NCBI GenBank assembly: GCA_012522505.1
Contig: JAAYKJ010000213.1
Coordinates: 1 to 34,741 of the forward strand
Length of the DNA stretch: 34,741 nt
Source of the DNA: Clostridiaceae bacterium
GTDB taxonomy: Bacteria; Bacillota; Clostridia; DSM-8532
Reading direction: 5' to 3'
Shown piece after piece: positions 7,851 through 27,081 of the stretch (the stretch's first letter is position 1; the number at the start of each line of letters is the position of its first letter). Under the pieces are notes generated by a model. It worked only from the letters and a program-made list of their open reading frames with translations. It had not been told where the DNA came from and searched no databases. The position numbers and the translations under genes are program-made.

Positions 7851-9404
7851 TTATGAAGCTGATTCTGAACCATTCTGGGAGGATTTTAAGATACACTTCA
7901 TAATACTCTCCTGGTTGGCCGTTTCTTTATCCATTTCTCCGACAATTCTTCCCTCATTCATGATATAAATTCTGTCGCAGATGCCCAGAATCTCAGGCAA
8001 TTCCGAAGAAACTACTACAACGCATTTCCCTTGCTCAGCAAGCTGGTTTATGATCGTATAAATTTCATACTTTGCACCTACATCAATGCCTCGTGTAGGT
8101 TCATCCAGAAACAGAACATCCGGCTCGGAAAATATCCACTTGCTCAAAACAACCTTTTGTTGGTTCCCTCCGGAAAGGGTTCCCGCTTTTTGATAAATTC
8201 CGGAAGATTTAATGGTTAACAGCTTGCTTTGCTCTTCTGCAGCCCTGATCTCTACATTATCATCGATCACATTGTTATTGCTGATTTTATCCAGTCTTGA
8301 AAGTGTAATGTTTCTTCTTATGTCATCGATCAGGATCAGCCCTGCTGTTTTTCTGTCTTCGGTAACATAGGCCAAACCGTTCTCTATCGCTTCACGGATT
8401 GTTTTCAGTCTCAGTTCCCTTCCATCCTTAATCAGTTTTCCGCTGATCTTTTTTCCATATGCTCTTCCGAAAAGGCTCATGCATAATTCAGTTCTTCCAG
8501 CGCCCATTAAACCTGCAATACCTACAACCTCGCCTTTTCTAACATTCATACTGACATTCTTAATCACAATTTTTTCTTCATCAAGAGGGTTGTAAACAAC
8601 CCAGTTTTTTACTTCAAACCCGATATCACCGATTTTAGGCGTTCTTGCCGGGAACCGGTTTACAAGTTCTCTGCCCACCATCCCCTTAATAATTCGGTTC
8701 TCTGTGATTTCATCCCTTCCCTTAACGAGGGTTTCAATCAGGGCTCCATCCCGTAATACGGTTATTTCTTCTGCTATTTTGGTAACCTCATGGATTTTGT
8801 GAGAAATGATAATACAGGTAATTCCCTGTTTTTGATTCAGCTCAACCAGTAGGTTTAGCAAATTGTTTGAATCTTCATCGTTCAAAGCGGCGGTAGGTTC
8901 ATCAAGAATGAGAAGTTTAACTTGCTTGGATAATGCCTTGGCAATCTCAACAAGCTGTTGTTTTCCAACCCCGATATCCTTGATCAGCGCCGTATGTTTT
9001 TCCCGTAACCCTACCCTTTGGATGAGTTTCGCTGCTTGATGGTTGGTTAAGTCCCAGTTAATGATTCCGTTTTTCGCTCGTTCATTTCCCAGGTATATGT
9101 TCTCTGCTATTGTCATATACGGATTAAGTGCCAGTTCCTGGTGTATGATGGCAATGCCGACTCTCTCGCTTTCCCGAATATTTCTGAACACACATTTTTT
9201 GCCGTTGAAGTAAATATCCCCTTGATAGGTGCCATACGGGTAAACCCCGCTTAATACGTTCATCAGGGTAGACTTGCCTGCCCCGTTTTCACCAACAAGC
9301 GCATGAATCTGCCCCTCTTTCACCTTCAGGTTAACATTGTCAAGCGCTTTAACCCCCGGGAATGTTTTCGTGATGTTTTTCATTTCAAGAATATATTCCG
9401 ACAT
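7851..9404 (-). CDS. Sugar ABC transporter ATPase with two domains, XylG/GguA type
   Basis: This 517-residue protein is a tandem ABC ATPase like RbsA, XylG and MglA. The first domain has Walker [10 protein letters not shown] (residues 38-46) and Walker [12 protein letters not shown]. The second has the degenerate Walker [10 protein letters not shown], the signature LSGGNQQK and Walker [13 protein letters not shown]. The degenerate second Walker A is normal in this family. I start at ATG 9404, which begins [10 protein letters not shown] as in relatives and has GGAG eight bases upstream. A longer frame to 9467 runs through a hairpin and is unlikely to be translated. It powers uptake of a monosaccharide together with the permease and the lipoprotein of the same operon. 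Confidence 0.95.
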
Positions 9405-9448
9405 AGTAATGCTCCATTCCTGTATGATGCTCATGTTCCTGTAAACCT

Positions 9449-9487
9449 GCATACTGTAATGGAGCACTGAACTCCATTACAGTATGC
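9449..9487 (-). other. Intercistronic stem-loop after the binding-protein gene
   Basis: A perfect 16-base-pair inverted repeat, GCATACTGTAATGGAG and its complement, brackets a 7-base loop. It begins 15 bases past the stop of the binding-protein gene. No run of T follows on the minus strand, so it looks like an mRNA 3'-end stabiliser or partial attenuator. That would keep binding-protein mRNA in excess over the ATPase and permease, a pattern known from malE-malF in enteric bacteria. Confidence 0.85.
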
Positions 9488-9502
9488 TTTCAGGAAACTC
9501 TA

Positions 9503-10594
9503 TTACTTTAACTGGGCTTCTTCGTAATATCCGGTATCGATCAGTAATTCTTTGTAGTTGTTTACATCTGCGAATACAGGATCACACAGATAGGACGGAA
9601 CCACTTTTTTGCCATTGTCATAGGTCTCGGTATCGTTTATCTCGGGTTCGGTTCCCTTCATAATTGCTTCAACCATTCCTACAACCTTTTCTGCAAGTGT
9701 TCTGGTATCCTTGAATACAGACATGGACTGCTCGCCTGCGATCATATGTTTTACGTTTGTAATGTCACAATCCTGACCGGTGAGAATCGGATACGGTTTA
9801 GAGGCAGTGCCATAGCCTGCTGCTTTCAGAGATGCCACGATACCCTGTGCAAGACTGTCATTCGGGGAAAGAACGACATCGATGTTTTCATCAGAATAAA
9901 ATGCAGTCAGGAGGTTATCCATTCTGGCCTGAGAACCCTCAGATTTCCAGCCCGAAATTGCAATCTGTTCCATGTCTGTCTGGCCCGACTTGATAACCAA
10001 TACGCCACTGTCAATATAGGGCTTTAAGGTATCCATCGCACCACCATTAAAGTAATAAGCATTGTTGTCATCCGGGGAACCGCCGAATACTTCCATGGTG
10101 AATGGCCCTTTTTCTCCTTCGGCAAGCTTCAATGTATCAATGATATACTGCCCTTGAATTACACCAACTTTGTAGTTGTCAAAGGTCGCATAATAGTCAA
10201 CATGAGGTGTTCCCTTAATCAGACGGTCATAAGCAATGACCTTAATACCTTCTGCTGCTGCCTCTTCAAGAACTCCACCAAGAGATTCGCCGTCGATGGA
10301 GGCAATAACCAGAACCTTCGCTCCCTTTGTGATCATATTCTCAATTTGTGTTAACTGCGTATCAACGCTATCTTCTGCATATTGCAGGTCTACAGTGTAC
10401 CCAGCCTTTTCCAGCAGTTTCTGCATGTTTTCACCGTCCTGGTTCCAGCGCTGCAAGGATTTGGTGGGCATCGCAACACCGATAAGCTCTCCACCACCGG
10501 TGGCGGGACCACCGCCAGATGGCAGCGTACAACCCATAAGAACCACAGACAACAGCATAACCACTGCTACAAGAATCGATAAAGACCTCTTCAT
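9503..10594 (-). CDS. ChvE/XylF-type monosaccharide-binding lipoprotein
   Basis: This 363-residue lipoprotein has a basic start, a hydrophobic segment and the lipobox LMGC with Cys22, followed by a Gly/Pro-rich linker. The mature part is a type I periplasmic-binding fold. IGVAMPTKSLQRWNQDG opens the first strand; VIAYDRLI, FGGSPDDNNAYYFNGGAMD, LSPNDSLAQGI and LTGQDCD follow, all typical of ChvE and related multiple-sugar-binding proteins. It delivers sugar to the GguA/GguB-like ATPase and permease downstream. AAGGAGGG stands seven bases before ATG 10594. The range of known ChvE-type ligands (glucose, galactose, xylose, arabinose) means the substrate cannot be fixed by reading. The relative at 717-1778 is separate and belongs to the sensor cluster. 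Confidence 0.93.
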   Translation of the reverse strand: MKRSLSILVAVVMLLSVVLMGCTLPSGGGPATGGGELIGVAMPTKSLQRWNQDGENMQKLLEKAGYTVDLQYAEDSVDTQLTQIENMITKGAKVLVIASIDGESLGGVLEEAAAEGIKVIAYDRLIKGTPHVDYYATFDNYKVGVIQGQYIIDTLKLAEGEKGPFTMEVFGGSPDDNNAYYFNGGAMDTLKPYIDSGVLVIKSGQTDMEQIAISGWKSEGSQARMDNLLTAFYSDENIDVVLSPNDSLAQGIVASLKAAGYGTASKPYPILTGQDCDITNVKHMIAGEQSMSVFKDTRTLAEKVVGMVEAIMKGTEPEINDTETYDNGKKVVPSYLCDPVFADVNNYKELLIDTGYYEEAQLK

Positions 10595-17311: not shown

Positions 17312-19439
17312 AAAATACCTCCCCGATGATGACTTCTCCCGGCTTCAGTTCCCTTCCCCAGGTAAAGAACCCGTAGCCCTCATCTCCTTCATTGATAACA
17401 GCATTTGTTTGCCTGCTGATGTTTTCTTGATCTATGGAAGCAATCCATTGGCTATCCCTGAAAACGAGATTTACCCTGAGTTTTTTGGCTTCCTGCTGAA
17501 AACAATCTATTGGCCTGAACCTGACACTTGCCCTAAAGTTACGGTTAGCCAGTAAAAAAACACCCCGTCCTGACATTTCATGAAAATAGTAGAGTAAGGT
17601 TAGTTCTTCATCTTGGCACAGGGTTTTCTCTATAAAATTTTCCCGAGCCGCCAGCAGGTCAAGGTATCGTTTGCGTATCCTCGCAGCACGGTTAAGTTGC
17701 TCACACATCCATACCCGGTCTTCATTTGTCCAGTGTAAGCGGTACGGATCAAAGAACGCCAGCTTTCCATACATTGGGTCATCCGGGTTTAAAACATACC
17801 TGCCCTTTTCGGAGTTATCCAGCCCAAGGTTCATCGGCTGTTTTTCCATCACTTCAAACCCATTGGTTAAAAACTGCACTGAATTGGGCAAAAAACAATT
17901 CAATAGAATCAGCTGTTCCAATTTTCTCTTATCACGATGCACCCATGCTGCCCTTGGCGTATCAGGTGTTTCGAGGGTAGCGACTACCGGCAGTTCCGAT
18001 TTCAGCAGGCATTGACCCAGCAATTTTTTGTTGAACCCGGGCTTCTCAAGCTCCTTGTATATCCCCCAAACCTCTCCTGTGATAAAATGAAAGCCTTCTT
18101 CTTTAGCTGCGACTGCTTTTTCGGGATCGAACTCCTCCGACCAGAACAAAAAATACTTATCCCCGTTCATCGCACGGGTTATAATCTCTCTGCTCAAATC
18201 CTGCGGGAGCGCATGCCCCATATCCAGCCTGGCGCCATCAACTCCGTATTTGTCCCTGTAGTACGGGATAACCCCTGATATGTAATCATACAGCCCGGTA
18301 TTGGGTTGGGTTCCGGGATAAAGCTTCAGTTTCACACCATCCTGCATGATATATGGCGCCTGATGGGCATCTACATATCTGGCAGCTTTCTCATTCACAT
18401 CGAAATAAAACCTGAAATAGGTAACATCCGTCCACTTCGGTTGATTATCATTCAAGACATCCGAAAAGCCAGGTACTGTGGTCATATTGAATTCTTGTTC
18501 GATCAGATCAAGAATGTTTTCACCGGTTTTCCGATGTCTTGCAACAAGGCTTTCCCACTTTTTTGCATTGGTCTTCTTTGGATTGTGCACAAACTTCCCC
18601 AGATAATCCTTCAGCCCCTCTGAATGATACAGTGCAGAAAAGGTTTGATCATTAACCTGCACGGGCTCTGTTGTAATCCCGATGGAAGGGGTGGTAATGG
18701 TCTTCGCATATTTCTTGTCGATCCAATAAAACCATTCGGGATGGGAAAGGATCAGATCGTTGTCTCTGGCTGCTGTTCTGAAAGCATAATCCATCATCAC
18801 CATCATTCCCAGCGCATGGCACGCTTCAACAAATGCCATGAACTGTATATCCAGCAGCTCTTCGGAATACTCACCCAGCAACGGCTCGTGCAGGCTCCTG
18901 TCGATTTTATAGATGTTTTTTATTGCATAAGGGCTGCCAATCGCTCCTTTTTTGTATCGATTACTGTGTTCGAAAAACGGAAGCAGTGAAACGATATCAA
19001 CTCCGATGCTTTTCAGCCAGGGGAGAAGGCATAGCGCCTTAATAAATGTACCTGAACAGATTCTATCTTTATCATAATGATCCCATGCGGTTACCATCCG
19101 AGGAAGCATACAGTAAATGGAGTGCCGGCACGGGCTTGGCAATTTTTGCGGCGAACATTGAAAGCACATATGCTGTGCAGTATTTGCACTGTTAACTGAC
19201 GTCAGGAAGGGTTTTCCTTCACGTTCTCGAACGTCTCTGTTTGCCGCCGCTTTTAGCAGGATCTGTTCTATGCATGCTGAAAAAAAAGCGTAGGGATCGA
19301 TCCTTTGCTCTCCCGGCCTGGCCGTTTCCGTACGATAGTCAGTGAACCCCCAGGTATTCCATCCTTCTGGTATAAAGTAACCCTGGGATAGACTGTTTCG
19401 ATTTTTCAATAACCTAAGTACAAGCTTTAATTTTTCCAT
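17292..19439 (-). CDS. GH13-family enzyme, maltosyltransferase-like
   Basis: This 715-residue cytoplasmic protein has a GH13 barrel. The catalytic residues are readable: nucleophile Asp406 in GARLDMGHALP, acid/base Glu435 or Glu436 in FWSEEF, and Asp493 in TLETPDTPR. The first 130 residues are unusual and include a Cys/Pro-rich stretch (MCFQCSPQKLPSPCRH). The segments SHPEWFYWIDKK and RLDMGHALP recall Thermotoga maltosyltransferase and, more distantly, GlgE, rather than a secreted amylase; there is no signal peptide. It may transfer maltosyl or glucanosyl units among maltodextrins to make good phosphorylase substrates. Its ATG overlaps the upstream stop codon by one base, and its 3' end overlaps glgP, so the three are translated together. 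The exact activity is not settled. Confidence 0.75.
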   Translation of the reverse strand: MEKLKLVLRLLKNRNSLSQGYFIPEGWNTWGFTDYRTETARPGEQRIDPYAFFSACIEQILLKAAANRDVREREGKPFLTSVNSANTAQHMCFQCSPQKLPSPCRHSIYCMLPRMVTAWDHYDKDRICSGTFIKALCLLPWLKSIGVDIVSLLPFFEHSNRYKKGAIGSPYAIKNIYKIDRSLHEPLLGEYSEELLDIQFMAFVEACHALGMMVMMDYAFRTAARDNDLILSHPEWFYWIDKKYAKTITTPSIGITTEPVQVNDQTFSALYHSEGLKDYLGKFVHNPKKTNAKKWESLVARHRKTGENILDLIEQEFNMTTVPGFSDVLNDNQPKWTDVTYFRFYFDVNEKAARYVDAHQAPYIMQDGVKLKLYPGTQPNTGLYDYISGVIPYYRDKYGVDGARLDMGHALPQDLSREIITRAMNGDKYFLFWSEEFDPEKAVAAKEEGFHFITGEVWGIYKELEKPGFNKKLLGQCLLKSELPVVATLETPDTPRAAWVHRDKRKLEQLILLNCFLPNSVQFLTNGFEVMEKQPMNLGLDNSEKGRYVLNPDDPMYGKLAFFDPYRLHWTNEDRVWMCEQLNRAARIRKRYLDLLAARENFIEKTLCQDEELTLLYYFHEMSGRGVFLLANRNFRASVRFRPIDCFQQEAKKLRVNLVFRDSQWIASIDQENISRQTNAVINEGDEGYGFFTWGRELKPGEVIIGEVFYDEEER

Positions 19440-21379
19440 TAATCCACCATTTCTTTTTCAACACTATCTGAAAGCGAATCAATTCGCTTAAGAATCATTC
19501 CGCTTAATGGCTCAAGCGTCACTGTAACTGCATTACCTTCAAGCATGTATGTTTTTCCACTTATAAGCTCTGCCATATAGCCATGCTTGTCTGGAAGCTC
19601 TGGCCTGGATTCACCTTTTTTACAGTACCGGACATCCAGCGTGTACTGAACCACCGACTCGCTGTTATTGATGATTACAAACAACCTTTTGCCGTTAGCT
19701 TCTCTGAAATAGACAATCGTGTTACAGACCAGTTCCCTGTCTATTGTGATATAATCTCCGGTCATCAGATCCATATGTTCTTTCCGGATCGTGATAAGCT
19801 TTTGATAAAACTCAAAAAGCTGATTTGAGGTTTCGGATTCGCCCCATTGCATGGGTTTTCTGTAATCCTTCTCGCAAAGCCCGTCAAGGCCTTTCTCATC
19901 CCCGTAATACACGGTGGGAATTCCAACGTGGGTCATCATGAAAAGTACCGCGAGTTTTAGTTTTCTGATGTCTCCTCCCGCCTTTGACAGGAACCTGGGA
20001 ACATCATGGCTGTCAATAAGATTCATCTGAACCTGCTGAATGTCTTTTTTATACCGCATTCTCAGATAGCTCATTCTGTCATCAAACTGCTTCACGTTGA
20101 TAATCCCCTTGGCAAAGAAATCGGCGCAGGTATCCATAAAACCATAATTCATTACCGAGTCAAACTGGTCACCCATCAGCCATTCCCTGGCGTCAAACCA
20201 GATTTCCCCGATCAGGAACGCATCTGGCTTCACATCTCTGACAGCTTTTCGGAATGCCCGCCAGAAATCATGGTTCACTTCATTGGCTACATCCAGCCGC
20301 CAGCCATCGATATCCGCTTCTTTTATCCAATAAGTTCCCACATCGATAAAATACGCCATAACCTCTGGATTACCGGTATTCAGCTTTGGCATGCTGCTGA
20401 CATAGGCGAAGCATTCATAATTCTGCTTGTCACAGCACACCGGGTAATCCTTGATAAAAAACCAGTCTTTATACCTGGATTGTTCTCCCTTCTCTAAAAC
20501 ATCCCGGAAGGCAAAGAAATCTGCTCCACAATGATTGAACACACCGTCGAGGATGACCCGTATATCCAAACCGTGGCATTTTTTTACCAGCTACTTCAGT
20601 GTTTTCAGGTCCCCAAAGCAGGGATCCACACTGAAGTAATCGATCGTATCATATTTATGGTACTCTCCCGCAGTAAAAATTGGTGTAAGGTACAGACAGT
20701 TGATCCCCAAACGCTTCAGATAGGGCAGGTTTTCGATGATCCCCCTGAGGGTTCCCCCCTGGTCGCTTTTGCAAAAGATGTGATTGCTGTTGGCTGCAGC
20801 ACCCGTACCGAGCGCACTCCCGGGCGGATTCGGCGGCATCTGAATCGCTGTGAAGGGGATAATGTGTTCCGCTGTACATATGCCGCTATCGGTCACCCAT
20901 TTCATTGGGATCGTTTTCCCTTCTGCGGCAATATAGTTGCGTCCTGTGGCAAAACTGTCTGGGAAAACCTGATAAATGACGGCTGATTTAGCCCACTCAG
21001 GCACATCAACGATATCTTCCTGCCGGATATAGGAAAGTTGATAGTATTGATTTCTGTTGTGCCCCAGTTTCTGGTGAAATGCATTGCCATAGTAATAAAC
21101 AGACATTTTACCGTCTGATAGGATAAAATAATAGCAAACCCTTGTCAGATCAGTTTTAATGATCGCTTCAAAATAGTCAAAGCAGCTGTCCGAAGCCACC
21201 ACGGACATTTCCACTGCATCGACACGTACAACCTCTCTTGGGTATACTCTGTCACCATAACATACCACACATCGGGTCAGGTCTCCTCTTTTCGCCCGCA
21301 ACCGGATGACAATGGTGTGGATGTCGATGGCGTGACAGTATTCCGAGCCCGTTGAGTGAAAAACAGCTTCAAAGACCAT
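19439..21379 (-). pseudogene. Neopullulanase/maltogenic-amylase gene (GH13_20-like) interrupted by in-frame TAG
   Basis: The reading frame is continuous for 646 codons apart from one TAG at 20593-20591 (codon 263). The first part encodes an N-terminal beta domain like CBM34 and the start of the barrel (PEWAKSAVIYQVFPDSFA, GINCLYLTPIF, HKYDTIDYFSVDP). The second continues in the same frame with DGVFNHCG, GWRLDVANE (nucleophile Asp), LIGEIWFD (acid/base Glu) and LIDSHDVPRF. Relatives usually have a Glu at or near the stop position, so a single G-to-T change could explain it. TAG is an ordinary stop elsewhere in the window, arguing against recoding. Start ATG 21379 has GGAGG seven bases upstream. 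Without readthrough only 262 residues lacking the catalytic site would be made. An intact enzyme would hydrolyse imported maltodextrins or pullulan fragments. A sequencing error remains possible. Confidence 0.85.
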
Positions 21380-21429
21380 GATTAATCCTCCATTCAAAGA
21401 GCGTTTGCGCGAATTGTGCGCCAAAACGC

Positions 21430-21498: not shown

Positions 21499-22338
21499 CT
21501 ACATTTTAGATGCGCCTTCTGCAAGCCCCTGGATCATGAAACGCTGTAAAAAGATAAACAGGATTGTAATGGGCACCGCCACCATGACAGCGCCGGCTGC
21601 AAACATTGTAAACTCGGTATTCATCCTTCCAGAAACCATTTCATACAACCCGATCGCCAACGTTTTTTTATCTGCTGAGCGCAGAACAAGCCTGGCCAGA
21701 ATATAATCCATCCATGGCGCAATAAAGTTGGACAGCGCTACAAAGGTAAGAATCGGGAAGGACATAGGCATCATCACTTTTGTAAAAATCGTTGCGTTGG
21801 AAGCGCCGTCTATTTTCGCAGCCTCTGGTAAAGATCTTGGAATTCCGTCAAAATAGCCCTTTACAAGCCAGGAACCGCCCGGAATTGCACCTCCGGCATA
21901 TACAAGAATCAAACCCAGATGGGTATCCAGTAGCCCCATCTGCAGCAGTAAAAGATAGATCGCGATCATCGTCATAAAACCTGGAAACGCCTGAAGGATC
22001 AACATGGCCATCAGAGACATTCTGCGCCCCCTGAATCGAAACTGAGACAGCGCATATGCGGTAAAAATGACCAGTACTAAGGCCAGGATCATCGTAAAAA
22101 AAGCAATTTTTAACGTATTTATGTACCACAGCCCAAAATCTTTCTCAAGAAACAACTCTCTGTAATGAACCAGCGTGAACCTTTCGGGTATCAGGGTTGT
22201 GGAGTACAATGCCGTGCCTGGGTTAAATGAGGACATCATGATCCACAAGATTGGATAAATGGATGTCACCGCTGTGCATACCAGAAGGACATAGATAAAA
22301 AAACGAACGATGATTCTCCTTACTTTCGAAAAACTCAT
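21499..22338 (-). CDS. malG: Maltodextrin ABC transporter permease, MalG type
   Basis: This 279-residue membrane protein has six hydrophobic segments. The ATPase-contact loop reads EAAKIDGASNATIFTKVMMP (about 187-206), a good EAA motif. The C-terminus ends QGLAEGASKM, typical of MalG and GanQ. It pairs with the MalF-like permease, whose 3' end overlaps its start by four bases. No MalK-type ATPase gene is in the operon, so it likely shares a multi-sugar ATPase encoded elsewhere, as in many Bacillota. Substrate assignment to maltodextrins rests on the neighbouring GH13 and phosphorylase genes. Confidence 0.92.
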   Translation of the reverse strand: MSFSKVRRIIVRFFIYVLLVCTAVTSIYPILWIMMSSFNPGTALYSTTLIPERFTLVHYRELFLEKDFGLWYINTLKIAFFTMILALVLVIFTAYALSQFRFRGRRMSLMAMLILQAFPGFMTMIAIYLLLLQMGLLDTHLGLILVYAGGAIPGGSWLVKGYFDGIPRSLPEAAKIDGASNATIFTKVMMPMSFPILTFVALSNFIAPWMDYILARLVLRSADKKTLAIGLYEMVSGRMNTEFTMFAAGAVMVAVPITILFIFLQRFMIQGLAEGASKM

Positions 22339-23636
22339 TGCACCATATCCTCCTCTTTGAATGATCGTGTACGCATGTAATTAAATGCGGATATGATTGT
22401 GATGAAGACAAATATGATGATGGACACAACCGCTGCCATATGGTATTGATTTTGCTCAAGGGTGAGCTTGTATAACCATGAAAGCAGAATGTCGGTATGT
22501 CCTGCATAAAAATACTGATTGTTGGCTGGGTTGCCGTTGGTCAGCAGGTAAATCAGTGTGAAGTTGTTGAAATTATAGGCAAAACCATTGATAACCAATG
22601 GAGCAGTTGCGAAAAGAACCATGGGGAGCGTGATCTGAAAGAACTGTTGGCGTGCGTTCGCACCCTCAATGGAGGCCGCTTCATATAGATCTCTCGGGAT
22701 ACCAGTCAATACGCCTGACATCATTGCCATATAATATGGAAACCCCAGCCACAAATTGACCAGTATGCAGGTGGTCTGTGCCCAGAAAGGTTCAGCCAGC
22801 CAGGGAACTGCACCAATGCCGATACTGGTCAGATATTTGTTTATCGGGCCGAACTGGCCATTAAACATATTGCGCATGATCAATATGGATATAAAGCCAG
22901 GAACCGCCCAAGGCAGAATGAAGATAGACCGCCAGAACTTCTTTAATACAATTTTATTTGCGTTGATGATTACTGCAAACACAAGTCCCACAAAGAATGT
23001 GGTAAAGGTAGAAAGAAACGCCCATATCAGTGTCCATCGCGCAATTCCGGCAAAGGTTTTCCCCAGGGACGGAATTTGAAACAGGTTGATAAAATTCTGA
23101 AAGCCCACCCAATCCACCAATGACCTGGGTGGCAGATGATTCGGGCTGGAGTAATTTGTAAATGCAATCATGACCCCGAAGGCCAATGGCACTACGGTTA
23201 AAAAGAGTGTAAAAACCCCTGCAGGAGTTAGCAAAAGATATACAAACCCTTTCTCCGACAAATTCCTGAGCGAATCCTTATATGAATTTACTTTTTTCTT
23301 TTCATCCCTGTTCTTTCCAACCTTGAATGCGTCCCGAACATTGATGATATACAGCACAACAAACAGAAACAATACGATGATGGCAATAATGCCGTAAACC
23401 ATCATAAATATAGAGTGATCACCCTGTATAATCTTACCGTTAACCATCCTCTGCGGCGTATCTCCCAATGTAACAAGACCTTTTATGCAGCTAAGTGTAT
23501 ACGGTAAAAGCATGATGATATACAATGCCTCCGCAACCGCCAGTATGCACCCTTTTATTATCTGCCTATTGTATAGCTGCCCCAGACCCATAAACAGAAT
23601 GGAAAGCGCTCCAGCCCTTTTGGAATGCCTGCCCAT
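22335..23636 (-). CDS. malF: Maltodextrin ABC transporter permease, MalF type
   Basis: This 433-residue membrane protein is longer than most sugar permeases. The N-terminal 130 residues carry two extra hydrophobic segments, with GLGQLYNRQIIKG before the first, and a charged linker. The conserved permease core follows, with FILPWAVPGFISILIMRNMF near 241 and the EAA loop LYEAASIEGANARQQFFQITLP (about 319-340, shown by its ends LYEAAS and ITLP). The size and layout match MdxF/MalF. GGGGG lies nine bases before ATG 23636. A 289-base gap containing a structured RNA separates it from the binding-protein gene. Confidence 0.92.
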   Translation of the reverse strand: MGRHSKRAGALSILFMGLGQLYNRQIIKGCILAVAEALYIIMLLPYTLSCIKGLVTLGDTPQRMVNGKIIQGDHSIFMMVYGIIAIIVLFLFVVLYIINVRDAFKVGKNRDEKKKVNSYKDSLRNLSEKGFVYLLLTPAGVFTLFLTVVPLAFGVMIAFTNYSSPNHLPPRSLVDWVGFQNFINLFQIPSLGKTFAGIARWTLIWAFLSTFTTFFVGLVFAVIINANKIVLKKFWRSIFILPWAVPGFISILIMRNMFNGQFGPINKYLTSIGIGAVPWLAEPFWAQTTCILVNLWLGFPYYMAMMSGVLTGIPRDLYEAASIEGANARQQFFQITLPMVLFATAPLVINGFAYNFNNFTLIYLLTNGNPANNQYFYAGHTDILLSWLYKLTLEQNQYHMAAVVSIIIFVFITIISAFNYMRTRSFKEEDMVQ

Positions 23637-23825
23637 ACCAGTTCGCCCCCTTCATCAAATTTCAAAGAAGCATGCCTTATCAATTATCAGCAACCCGTGC
23701 TCCTGCCTTTCGTCAGCAGGGTCTCTCTTTTCAGTCATATGAATTACAATCAATTCAATTGATGTTTTCAGAACTGTCATGCTTGCTGTAAAGCTAAATT
23801 GGACAAGGCCAGCCTTAATCATATT

Positions 23826-23899
23826 GGGTAACCAATCCCGGACAGACATCCTGTAACAGACTGTCCAGGATTGTTATGACGTATAACCTTTGGTTACCC
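23826..23899 (-). ncRNA. Predicted three-way-junction RNA in the malE-malF gap
   Basis: Three helices fold together on the minus strand, beginning 27 bases after the malE-like stop. P1 pairs GGGTAACC (23899-23892) with GGTTACCC (23833-23826). P2 is GTTAT-ACGTC-ATAAC (23887-23873). P3 pairs CAATCCTGGACAG with CTGTCCGGGATTG (23873-23861 and 23845-23833), 13 base pairs with one G-T. A few bases could join either P1 or P3. No T tract follows. The likely role is mRNA 3'-end protection or attenuation, keeping binding protein above permease. The remaining 190 bases to malF hold no convincing gene. Confidence 0.7.
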
Positions 23900-23925
23900 T
23901 TTCTTTTCAGTCAAAAAGGAGAACC

Positions 23926-25242
23926 TCACTCACTCTGGGTGGCCAACACATCCTGAATGGCCCTCACGGCATTGTCAAGCAACGTTTTGGGGTCTCCACC
24001 CTTGTTCCAATTTTCCTCCAGTGCAGTAGCCATGGGAGTCCAGACAGAGCTCATTTCAGGAATATTGGGCATTGCCTGGGCATACTGTGCCTGTTCGAGA
24101 ATGGCAGCATTCAGCGGATCATTGCGGATAGCGGGATCCTCAAGCAAATCGTTGCGCGGCGGAATCTGGCTGGTCTTCAAGAACCTGTCGGCCAGCAATT
24201 CTTTCGATGTCAGGTATTGGGCCAAAAGCTTTGCTGCATTGGGATAGTCGGTATAAGAGTTAACATAGAATGCGCGAATCCCTGAAAAGGATTCCGGGTT
24301 TTTTCCATTTGGAAGCTTTGGCAGCGGAGCAATTCCGAAATTCACACCAGCCTCCTTATATCCCTGTATTGCCCAGGGCCCGTTGATATCCATAGCCAGC
24401 TTTCCTTCGTTAAAAAGCGCGGTTTTGATATCATAATTTATATCTGCTGTGTTTAGCGGAAGGATTTCCTTAAGCCCTTGATGGAAGAGCAAGCCATCTA
24501 CCGAACCCTCATTGGCCAGGCCAATATCGTTTTTATCGGTGCCTTCACTGCCGAATACATACCCTCCATACCCACTCATGAAGGAATATACGTAATAGAA
24601 ATTTGAGGCTTCCATCATGAAGCCATATAGATTGTTGTCAATGTCGTTAAAGTTCTTGCTGAATTCAATCAGCTCGTCAAAGGTTTCGGGTGGTTCTAGC
24701 ACCAATTCCTTGTTGTAGAAAAGAGCATAGGTTTCAATCGCTACCGGAAAGCCATACCACACATTATCATAGGATGTTCCTTGAACTGCTGCGTCCAGAT
24801 ACTCACTTGAGTCTCCCACATCGTTTGGGTATACCAGCCCTGCGCTAACCAAACCACCAAGATGATCATGGGGCGCGGAGAAAACATCGGCACCAAGCTT
24901 CGCCGGGCCGTCTGTCTTCAGTTTTGACGGCGCATCGGTATGCTCTACAGGCTCAAAGATGACCTCGATGCCATATTCTGCAGCGAATTGTTGAGTAACC
25001 ACCTTCAGCCAGTCACCTTCCGGCCCGTCCGAATCCCATATCTTCAGTTTTGCGCCTGGTTCAGGCTTTAGCTCACTGTCACCAATTTGCGCTGTTCCGC
25101 CATCTGTATCGGAACCCCCTTTAGTTGGTTCATCCGAACTTACACTTCCTGGTAAGCCTGTGCAACCAGCGAACATCATAAGCATCACAAGCATTGCCAG
25201 AATAAACACCCACGTTCTTTTTCCTGCCTTACCTTCAAACAT
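23926..25242 (-). CDS. malE: Maltodextrin-binding lipoprotein, MalE/MdxE type
   Basis: This 438-residue extracellular solute-binding protein (family 1) has the lipobox FAGC with Cys27, followed by a Ser/Gly/Asp-rich linker to about residue 60. The mature domain starts GAKLKIWDSDGPEGDW and contains GADVFSAPHDHLGGL, NKELVLEPPETFDELI and KLAMDINGPWAI, typical of maltose- and maltodextrin-binding proteins. AAGGAGG lies eight bases before ATG 25242. It is the first gene of the transport operon and follows the lacI-type gene. Operon content favours maltodextrins; other glucans cannot be excluded. Confidence 0.93.
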   Translation of the reverse strand: MFEGKAGKRTWVFILAMLVMLMMFAGCTGLPGSVSSDEPTKGGSDTDGGTAQIGDSELKPEPGAKLKIWDSDGPEGDWLKVVTQQFAAEYGIEVIFEPVEHTDAPSKLKTDGPAKLGADVFSAPHDHLGGLVSAGLVYPNDVGDSSEYLDAAVQGTSYDNVWYGFPVAIETYALFYNKELVLEPPETFDELIEFSKNFNDIDNNLYGFMMEASNFYYVYSFMSGYGGYVFGSEGTDKNDIGLANEGSVDGLLFHQGLKEILPLNTADINYDIKTALFNEGKLAMDINGPWAIQGYKEAGVNFGIAPLPKLPNGKNPESFSGIRAFYVNSYTDYPNAAKLLAQYLTSKELLADRFLKTSQIPPRNDLLEDPAIRNDPLNAAILEQAQYAQAMPNIPEMSSVWTPMATALEENWNKGGDPKTLLDNAVRAIQDVLATQSE

Positions 25243-25527: not shown

Positions 25528-26535
25528 TTATGTAGATTTTCTGACTATCAGCTTCGCTGGAACAATAGCCCTGTCAAAACTTGTATATTCCTTGTTCATA
25601 TCGGCCAGCAGCAATTCAAATGCTTTGGCACCGAGGCTGAATGCATTTACATCCACTGAAGTCAGTGGGGGATTGAAGTATTCGTCCAGCGGAACATTGT
25701 TCACACCTGCCACAGCGATATCATCTGGCACCTTCATTCCTTTTTCGTTCAAATATCTGATTACACCGAAAGCAAGCAGAACGTCACATGCGATTACTGC
25801 GTTCGGCATTATCCCTCTGCCAATCAGTTCCTGGATTAACGCATATCCAGTATCTTCAACGAATTTACCATTGACGATCAGTTCGTCTCTGATTGGAATA
25901 TTGTGTTCCTGTAAGGCCTTCTTATACCCTTCCAGCCTGTCAAGGGTTACATTAAACTCAGGAGATGCACCCAGAAAAGCGATCTCTTTATACCCTCTTT
26001 CGATGAAATGTTTGGTTAAATCATAGCCGATGCATACATTATCATTGTCTACCCAGTTAACTTCCCGTTCAGATTCCGGCCTTCCGACAACAACAAAGGG
26101 AAACTTCATCTGCTTCAGTTCATCGACCGACGGATTCTTCACCCTGGAAGCCAATAAAATGATGCCCGATGTGATACCGCTTTTTGCAAACTCGGTAACA
26201 ACCTTCTTTTCCTCTGTGGCACTATTGACACTGGATATTAAAATTTTATACTTGTTTTTATATGCAATGGACGCTATTCCGCTTAATATCTCTGGAAAAA
26301 ACGGATGCTGGAAGGCTTTTTCAGTTGAACCGGTAACGACGACCCCAATAATTTTTGTAGACTTGTTCGCCAATGAACGGGCGATCATATTGGGATGGTA
26401 GTTCATCTCTTCCATCAGCTTTAAAATGCGTTCGCGGGTTTTCTTGCTGATTCGTGGATTGTTTGCAATTGTTCTGGAAACAGTTGAAGGTGAGACATTC
26501 GCAGCCTTTGCAATATCGTTGATCGTAACTGACAC
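25528..26535 (-). CDS. LacI-family repressor of the maltodextrin operon
   Basis: This 335-residue regulator has a helix-turn-helix and hinge at residues 1-60 (TINDIAKAANVSPSTVSRTI, then YHPNMIARSLAN) and a periplasmic-binding-like effector domain. I start at GTG 26535, where GGAGG stands seven bases upstream and the helix-turn-helix begins at once. The frame reaches 26574, but that part overlaps the operator. It lies directly upstream of malE on the same strand and resembles MalR-type regulators. Paired operator-like sites at its own promoter and before malE suggest autoregulation and control of the transport operon, relieved by maltose or a maltodextrin. The effector is inferred from context. 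Confidence 0.92.
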   Translation of the reverse strand: MSVTINDIAKAANVSPSTVSRTIANNPRISKKTRERILKLMEEMNYHPNMIARSLANKSTKIIGVVVTGSTEKAFQHPFFPEILSGIASIAYKNKYKILISSVNSATEEKKVVTEFAKSGITSGIILLASRVKNPSVDELKQMKFPFVVVGRPESEREVNWVDNDNVCIGYDLTKHFIERGYKEIAFLGASPEFNVTLDRLEGYKKALQEHNIPIRDELIVNGKFVEDTGYALIQELIGRGIMPNAVIACDVLLAFGVIRYLNEKGMKVPDDIAVAGVNNVPLDEYFNPPLTSVDVNAFSLGAKAFELLLADMNKEYTSFDRAIVPAKLIVRKST

Positions 26536-26558
26536 AACATGACCTCCATTTTGTTTGT

Positions 26559-26570
26559 GCAACCGTTTGC
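26559..26570 (-). promoter_or_regulatory. LacI-type operator before lacI
   Basis: GCAAACGGTTGC is a near-palindrome with a central CG. It starts ten bases after the -10 element, covering the early transcribed region, a normal place for a repressor to act. It resembles the site at 25499-25510. Confidence 0.65.
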
Positions 26571-26579
26571 TCACTTTCT

Positions 26580-26715: not shown

Positions 26716-26719
26716 ACAG

Positions 26720-27081
26720 TATTGAGCAAGCCTATAAGCCGGGTTCTGTATTGGATGATCATCTATCTAGGCTGGGCATTACTGCGCAGCTCAAGCCACC
26801 TCTGAGGACTGGCGGGCAACCAATGCGTCCTCTTCACGGTGTTGCTCCAGACGGGGTTTGCAGAGCATTTCCTGTCGCCAGGAAACCGGTGAGCTCTTAC
26901 CTCACCTTTCCATCCTTACCCAATAAAATGCATTGCATTCTATTCGGCGGTTTATTTCTGTTGCACTTTCCTTCAAGTCACCTTGACCGGGAGTTACCCG
27001 GCACCCTGCCCTATGGAGCCCGGACTTTCCTCGTATACGGCCTTTCGGCATGTACACGCGATCATCTGGCTTACTCAATAT
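26720..27081 (-). ncRNA. rnpB: RNase P RNA, type A
   Basis: On the minus strand the conserved 5' block GAGGAAAGTCCGGGCTCCAT (27033-27014) is followed by AGGGCAGGGTGCCGGGTAA and later GTGCAACAGAAA. The 3' part has the conserved ACAGAACCCGGCTTAT. The ends pair as TATTGAGTAAGCC with GGCTTGCTCAATA (helix P1, one G-U), which sets the ends to within a few bases. A length of about 362 bases and the layout match the ancestral type A, usual in clostridia, rather than the Bacillus type B. The RNA is the catalytic part of the enzyme that matures tRNA 5' ends. Confidence 0.95.

Follow-up and report, generated by a model that had tools for sequence, protein, structure and literature searches.

In Escherichia coli, the structure between malE and malF consists of REP sequences. 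The malE part of the malEFG message there has a half-life of 3.5 min against 1 min for malFG, with a 3' structure lying between malE and malF (Newbury 1987, as relayed in PMC5927463). In Clostridium operons subject to selective RNA processing and stabilization (SRPS), 28 of the 33 stem-loops carry no U run (PMC4423207), and across eight cellulolytic Clostridia 191 stem-loops have been predicted downstream of binding-protein genes (PMC9045158).

The element described here lies in a 34,741-nt stretch of DNA from a Clostridiaceae bacterium (contig JAAYKJ010000213.1), referred to below as the window, within an operon that encodes a maltose-type transporter (Table 1). The malE-like product scores under the cut-offs of the NCBIfam MalE and GanS models, and genes for an alpha-amylase and then an alpha-glucan phosphorylase follow 3' of the malG-like gene in the same minus-strand operon. 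Since all genes of the operon are on the minus strand, this is the relevant strand for the element. A reading of the sequence only, which preceded our analysis, had placed a folded RNA right after the malE-like stop codon and ahead of the permease gene; the position holds, as 26 nt separate the malE-like stop from the start of the element and 189 nt separate its end from the malF start, in an intergenic stretch of 289 nt that exceeds the length found in most relatives.

Other features of the neighborhood include the alpha-amylase gene (19439-21424, minus strand), which is interrupted by an in-frame TAG at 20591-20593. Both of its open reading frames are in the same frame and encode successive portions of the catalytic domain, and the TAG may represent a pseudogene, a sequencing error or readthrough. 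A class A RNase P RNA gene (26719-27077, minus strand) is located between the LacI-type regulator and DUF34/NIF3 genes.

Table 1. Transporter operon genes and helices of the intercistronic element, in window coordinates
Feature	Position	Strand	Details
LacI-type regulator gene	25528-26574	minus	
malE-like sugar-binding protein gene, upstream of element	23926-25242	minus	Pfam SBP_bac_8 (E 7.2e-41), SBP_bac_1 (E 5.2e-34)
Whole three-way-junction element	23826-23899	minus	MFE -32.9 kcal/mol, z -5.33
P1 closing stem, 5' arm	23891-23899	minus	9 bp; pairs with 23826-23834
P1 closing stem, 3' arm	23826-23834	minus	perfect 10-nt inverted repeat
P2 side hairpin	23873-23887	minus	5 bp, loop of 5; arms 23883-23887 / 23873-23877; probabilities 0.88-0.95
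P3 main hairpin	23835-23871	minus	arms 23861-23871 / 23835-23845; 11 bp in MFE, up to 13 bp by junction sliding
malF-like permease gene, downstream of element	22335-23636	minus	Pfam BPD_transp_1; NCBIfam MalF best, below cut-off
malG-like permease gene	21499-22338	minus	Pfam BPD_transp_1; NCBIfam MalG best, below cut-off

Fold of the malE-malF element

The three mutually compatible helices that the earlier reading had proposed are all recovered on the minus strand, where P1, P2 and P3 meet in a three-way junction. None of 200 shuffled sequences, and only 1 of 5,000 in a larger set, is as stable as this fold, and the plus strand of the same positions is less stable (-26.9 kcal/mol, z -3.41). 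Among the non-overlapping 74-nt folds of the whole window, the element ranks second in stability. P3 is the firmest part, with a probability of 1.00 in every context tested. Eight of the nine P1 pairs have probabilities of 0.98-1.00; the P1 probability ranges from 0.39 to 0.99 depending on the amount of flank folded. The values of 0.39-0.81 belong to some of the contexts containing the first nucleotides past the malE stop codon, which are able to make an upstream helix in place of P1. Opening P1 in favor of a local hairpin costs 5.3 kcal/mol, and omission of P2 costs just 2.2 kcal/mol. The side branch is unusual and adds little to the stability of the element.

Two details of the earlier proposal survive in reduced form. 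The 13-bp helix corresponds to P3, which does extend to that length (with one G-U pair), but only at the expense of bases in P1 and P2; the minimum free energy fold has 11 bp. Likewise, bases at the junction can indeed join either of two helices, with competing pair probabilities of 0.62 against 0.31 and 0.73 against 0.19, but the alternative forms are slides of 1-2 bp within about 0.5 kcal/mol. The ambiguity at the junction is real, yet it does not amount to a switch between distinct folds.

Structures after other binding-protein genes

Orthologues of the malE-like gene were collected from related genomes and genome contigs, the closest being from an uncultured Clostridiaceae (71% identity) and the others mainly from Paenibacillus (42-49%). 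After removal of duplicates the sample comprised 90 malE-malF junctions, the window's own included, and up to 110 nt past each malE stop was folded, depending on the length of the intergenic stretch. The 90 junctions, which are not independent since the Paenibacillus loci are related, have a median z of -3.0, with z below -2 in 66 of them. A component below -10 kcal/mol is present in 81/90, and the best component starts no more than 40 nt from the stop in 85/90. At the same loci, the 3' end of the malE coding sequence gives a median z of -0.45 (z below -2 in 7/90) and the 5' start of the malF coding sequence a median z of +0.12 (z below -2 in 2/89). A simple hairpin with 8 bp or more, including 5 or more GC pairs, occurs in 73/90 junctions, as against 13/90 for shuffled sequences.

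For the most part the orthologous structures are plain hairpins with differing, unrelated sequences, and many of the folds labeled as multiloops in the survey seem to be plain hairpins enclosed by outer pairings. The three-way junction of the window was recognized in no relative among the sampled junctions, and neither its sequence nor its shape is conserved. L003 and L004, for instance, which are near loci from one family, have in common a 17-bp hairpin that is unlike the window's, and the intergenic stretches of L003-L006 align to the element no better than shuffles do. The locus with the 71% identical malE (L032) matches P3 and the 3' arm of P1 at a borderline level (shuffle fraction 0.014) but folds as a single hairpin. 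What is conserved at this junction is a strong structure in position, not a sequence or a shape.

A separate observation concerns Paenibacillus (L034-L110), in which a CCCGCCG...CGGCGGG hairpin recurs just past the malE-like stop in 48 distinct junctions. In 36 aligned copies, compensatory changes are seen at four of the ten pairs and four pairs are invariant, and the sequence conservation is above what a generic stabilizer would need.

In the same genome as the window, a structure with z below -2 follows 21 of the 30 other binding-protein genes whose 3' end is readable. This count may include genes that do not head an ABC operon, and ordinary terminators of operons may account for some of the structures. 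Of the same coding sequences, 1/30 reaches this value in its last 110 nt. Within the window, just one non-overlapping 74-nt fold is stabler than the element, a long, nearly perfect hairpin at 9426-9510 (minus strand, z -7.30). It lies between the genes for a Peripla_BP_4 binding protein (9503-10594) and its ABC ATPase (7851-9467). The listed GTG start of this ABC ATPase gene falls inside the hairpin, and an ATG near 9404 looks likelier as the start.

The element is a further case of a rule for ABC importers, namely that a strong RNA structure tends to stand at the end of the binding-protein gene. In the survey, position is kept while sequence and shape turn over fast, and covariation of one homologous structure is therefore ill suited to testing this class; folding energy compared at matched positions serves better.

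A probable protective element and its alternatives

The element probably serves, between the two cistrons, as the 3' end of the malE-like message, where it would stabilize malE mRNA and keep the binding protein in surplus. The malE, malF and malG genes would be transcribed as one RNA, of which the long malFG part would be cleaved or would decay from its 3' side. Exonucleases would then be halted at the strong structure, leaving the malE segment longer-lived, and the predicted outcome is a malE:malF ratio at which binding protein exceeds the permeases. P1 and P2 would do no more than make a plain hairpin larger. A simple protective structure was one of the two roles suggested by the sequence-only reading, and our analysis supports it: strong structures follow most of the orthologous and same-genome binding-protein genes, and the arrangement is a published device for setting stoichiometry (PMC5927463, PMC4423207, PMC9045158).

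The same surplus could be generated at the level of synthesis if the element were a leaky internal terminator, with some transcripts ending just past malE, and either route, stabilization or leaky termination, leads to surplus binding protein. The binding-protein stem-loops tested in R. cellulolyticum are leaky terminators, which counts against the protective reading, as does the lack of conservation of the window's own sequence and branched shape. In cellulolytic Clostridia such stem-loops terminate at 20.7-96.1% and include types with few U (PMC9045158). The stem of the element is long and its position right for this role. However, the minus-strand sequence after P1 is AATATGATTAAG, which has three T in its first eight bases and no run, so that the U-rich tract by which internal intrinsic terminators are defined is absent after the stem. 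A terminator scan also gives no minus-strand site at the element, and in a published reporter a stem-loop stripped of its U-rich tail failed to terminate (PMC9045158). Leaky termination is accordingly rather unlikely; mRNA stabilization is the likelier of the two because no U-tract follows the stem, and the position, the stability and the lack of a U-tract together favor a 3' protective element.

It is very unlikely that the structure is a small palindrome, mobile or repeated, that landed by chance between malE and malF. The perfect terminal inverted repeat and the long intergenic stretch would fit such an origin, as would a 15-nt direct repeat (23723-23737 and 23899-23913; 14/15 identical, a level reached by 2/1,000 shuffles) that brackets a 161-nt segment containing most of the element. 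Against this, only one copy of the element exists in its genome, a search of 30 related genomes gave no convincing match and a plasmid search no similarity. Moreover, the direct repeat, though adjacent to the element on one side, is 88 nt away from it on the other. A REP/MITE-like repeat was rejected on the same single copy and lack of convincing matches in relatives. A pattern search with the P1 arms recognized no other copy in relatives, and in viral contigs the matches, judged by their number, come close to our estimate for chance. No further exact copy of the direct repeat occurs in the genome, and the repeat may reflect a local duplication or insertion.

The second role suggested by the sequence-only reading, a regulatory element of a previously undescribed class, is not supported: the junction is not recurrent, the element has neither a second copy nor a relative in Rfam, and it forms no terminator/antiterminator pair. 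A ligand-responsive element or a new class thus has no support. A known riboswitch or other Rfam family was also rejected, as covariance models gave no match at gathering score and a permissive search returned a single chance match to a miRNA (E 1.6). A regulated RNA switch, in which the junction or the upstream helix would change with malE translation termination or a ligand and alter malF expression, might draw on the junction bases able to join two helices and on the nucleotides just past the malE stop, which in some contexts are able to form a helix with the P1 5' arm. It is nevertheless highly improbable, given the 1-2 bp scale of the junction alternatives, the absence of an Rfam match and of a homologous copy in relatives, the plain hairpins at orthologous positions and the distance between the element and the malF start. 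A lineage-specific regulated element, which would respond through its junction or upstream helix to malE translation termination or a ligand and would tune rather than fix the malE:malF ratio, is highly improbable as well. A terminator for transcription of the opposite strand is very unlikely: the plus strand also folds and its stem is followed by TTTCTTTTC (23826-23920), but no operon gene lies on that strand, the minus-strand fold is clearly better, and no plus-strand site came out of the scan, although a long branched stem would exceed its loop limit. The element is an ordinary intercistronic structure of slightly unusual shape.

Relation to described systems

The E. coli malE-malF junction resembles the window's in the kind of operon, in the junction concerned, in the strong structure past the malE stop and in the need for malE in excess. 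The sequences are unrelated, and the window has one branched element in a single copy that belongs to no repeat family. Stabilization of the mRNA was measured in E. coli, whereas we infer it for the window's element.

The internal terminators of PMC9045158, of which type IV is the nearest, share with the element their position, a long GC-rich stem and few U. That paper describes them as single stem-loops only, with no additional structures, whereas the element has a side hairpin and no clear U-rich tract.

In the SRPS operons of Clostridium cellulolyticum (PMC4423207; PMC8219983), a stem-loop likewise stands at the 3' end of the operon gene that is needed more, mostly without a U run. The free energies of these stem-loops, -6.6 to -31.8 kcal/mol, are in a range similar to that of the element, which differs from them by the side hairpin that makes it a three-way junction. 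In the window too, a strong stem-loop lies past the stop of a gene needed in excess and no U run follows it; at orthologous junctions strong structures recur (66/90), alike in position and strength but not in sequence or shape.
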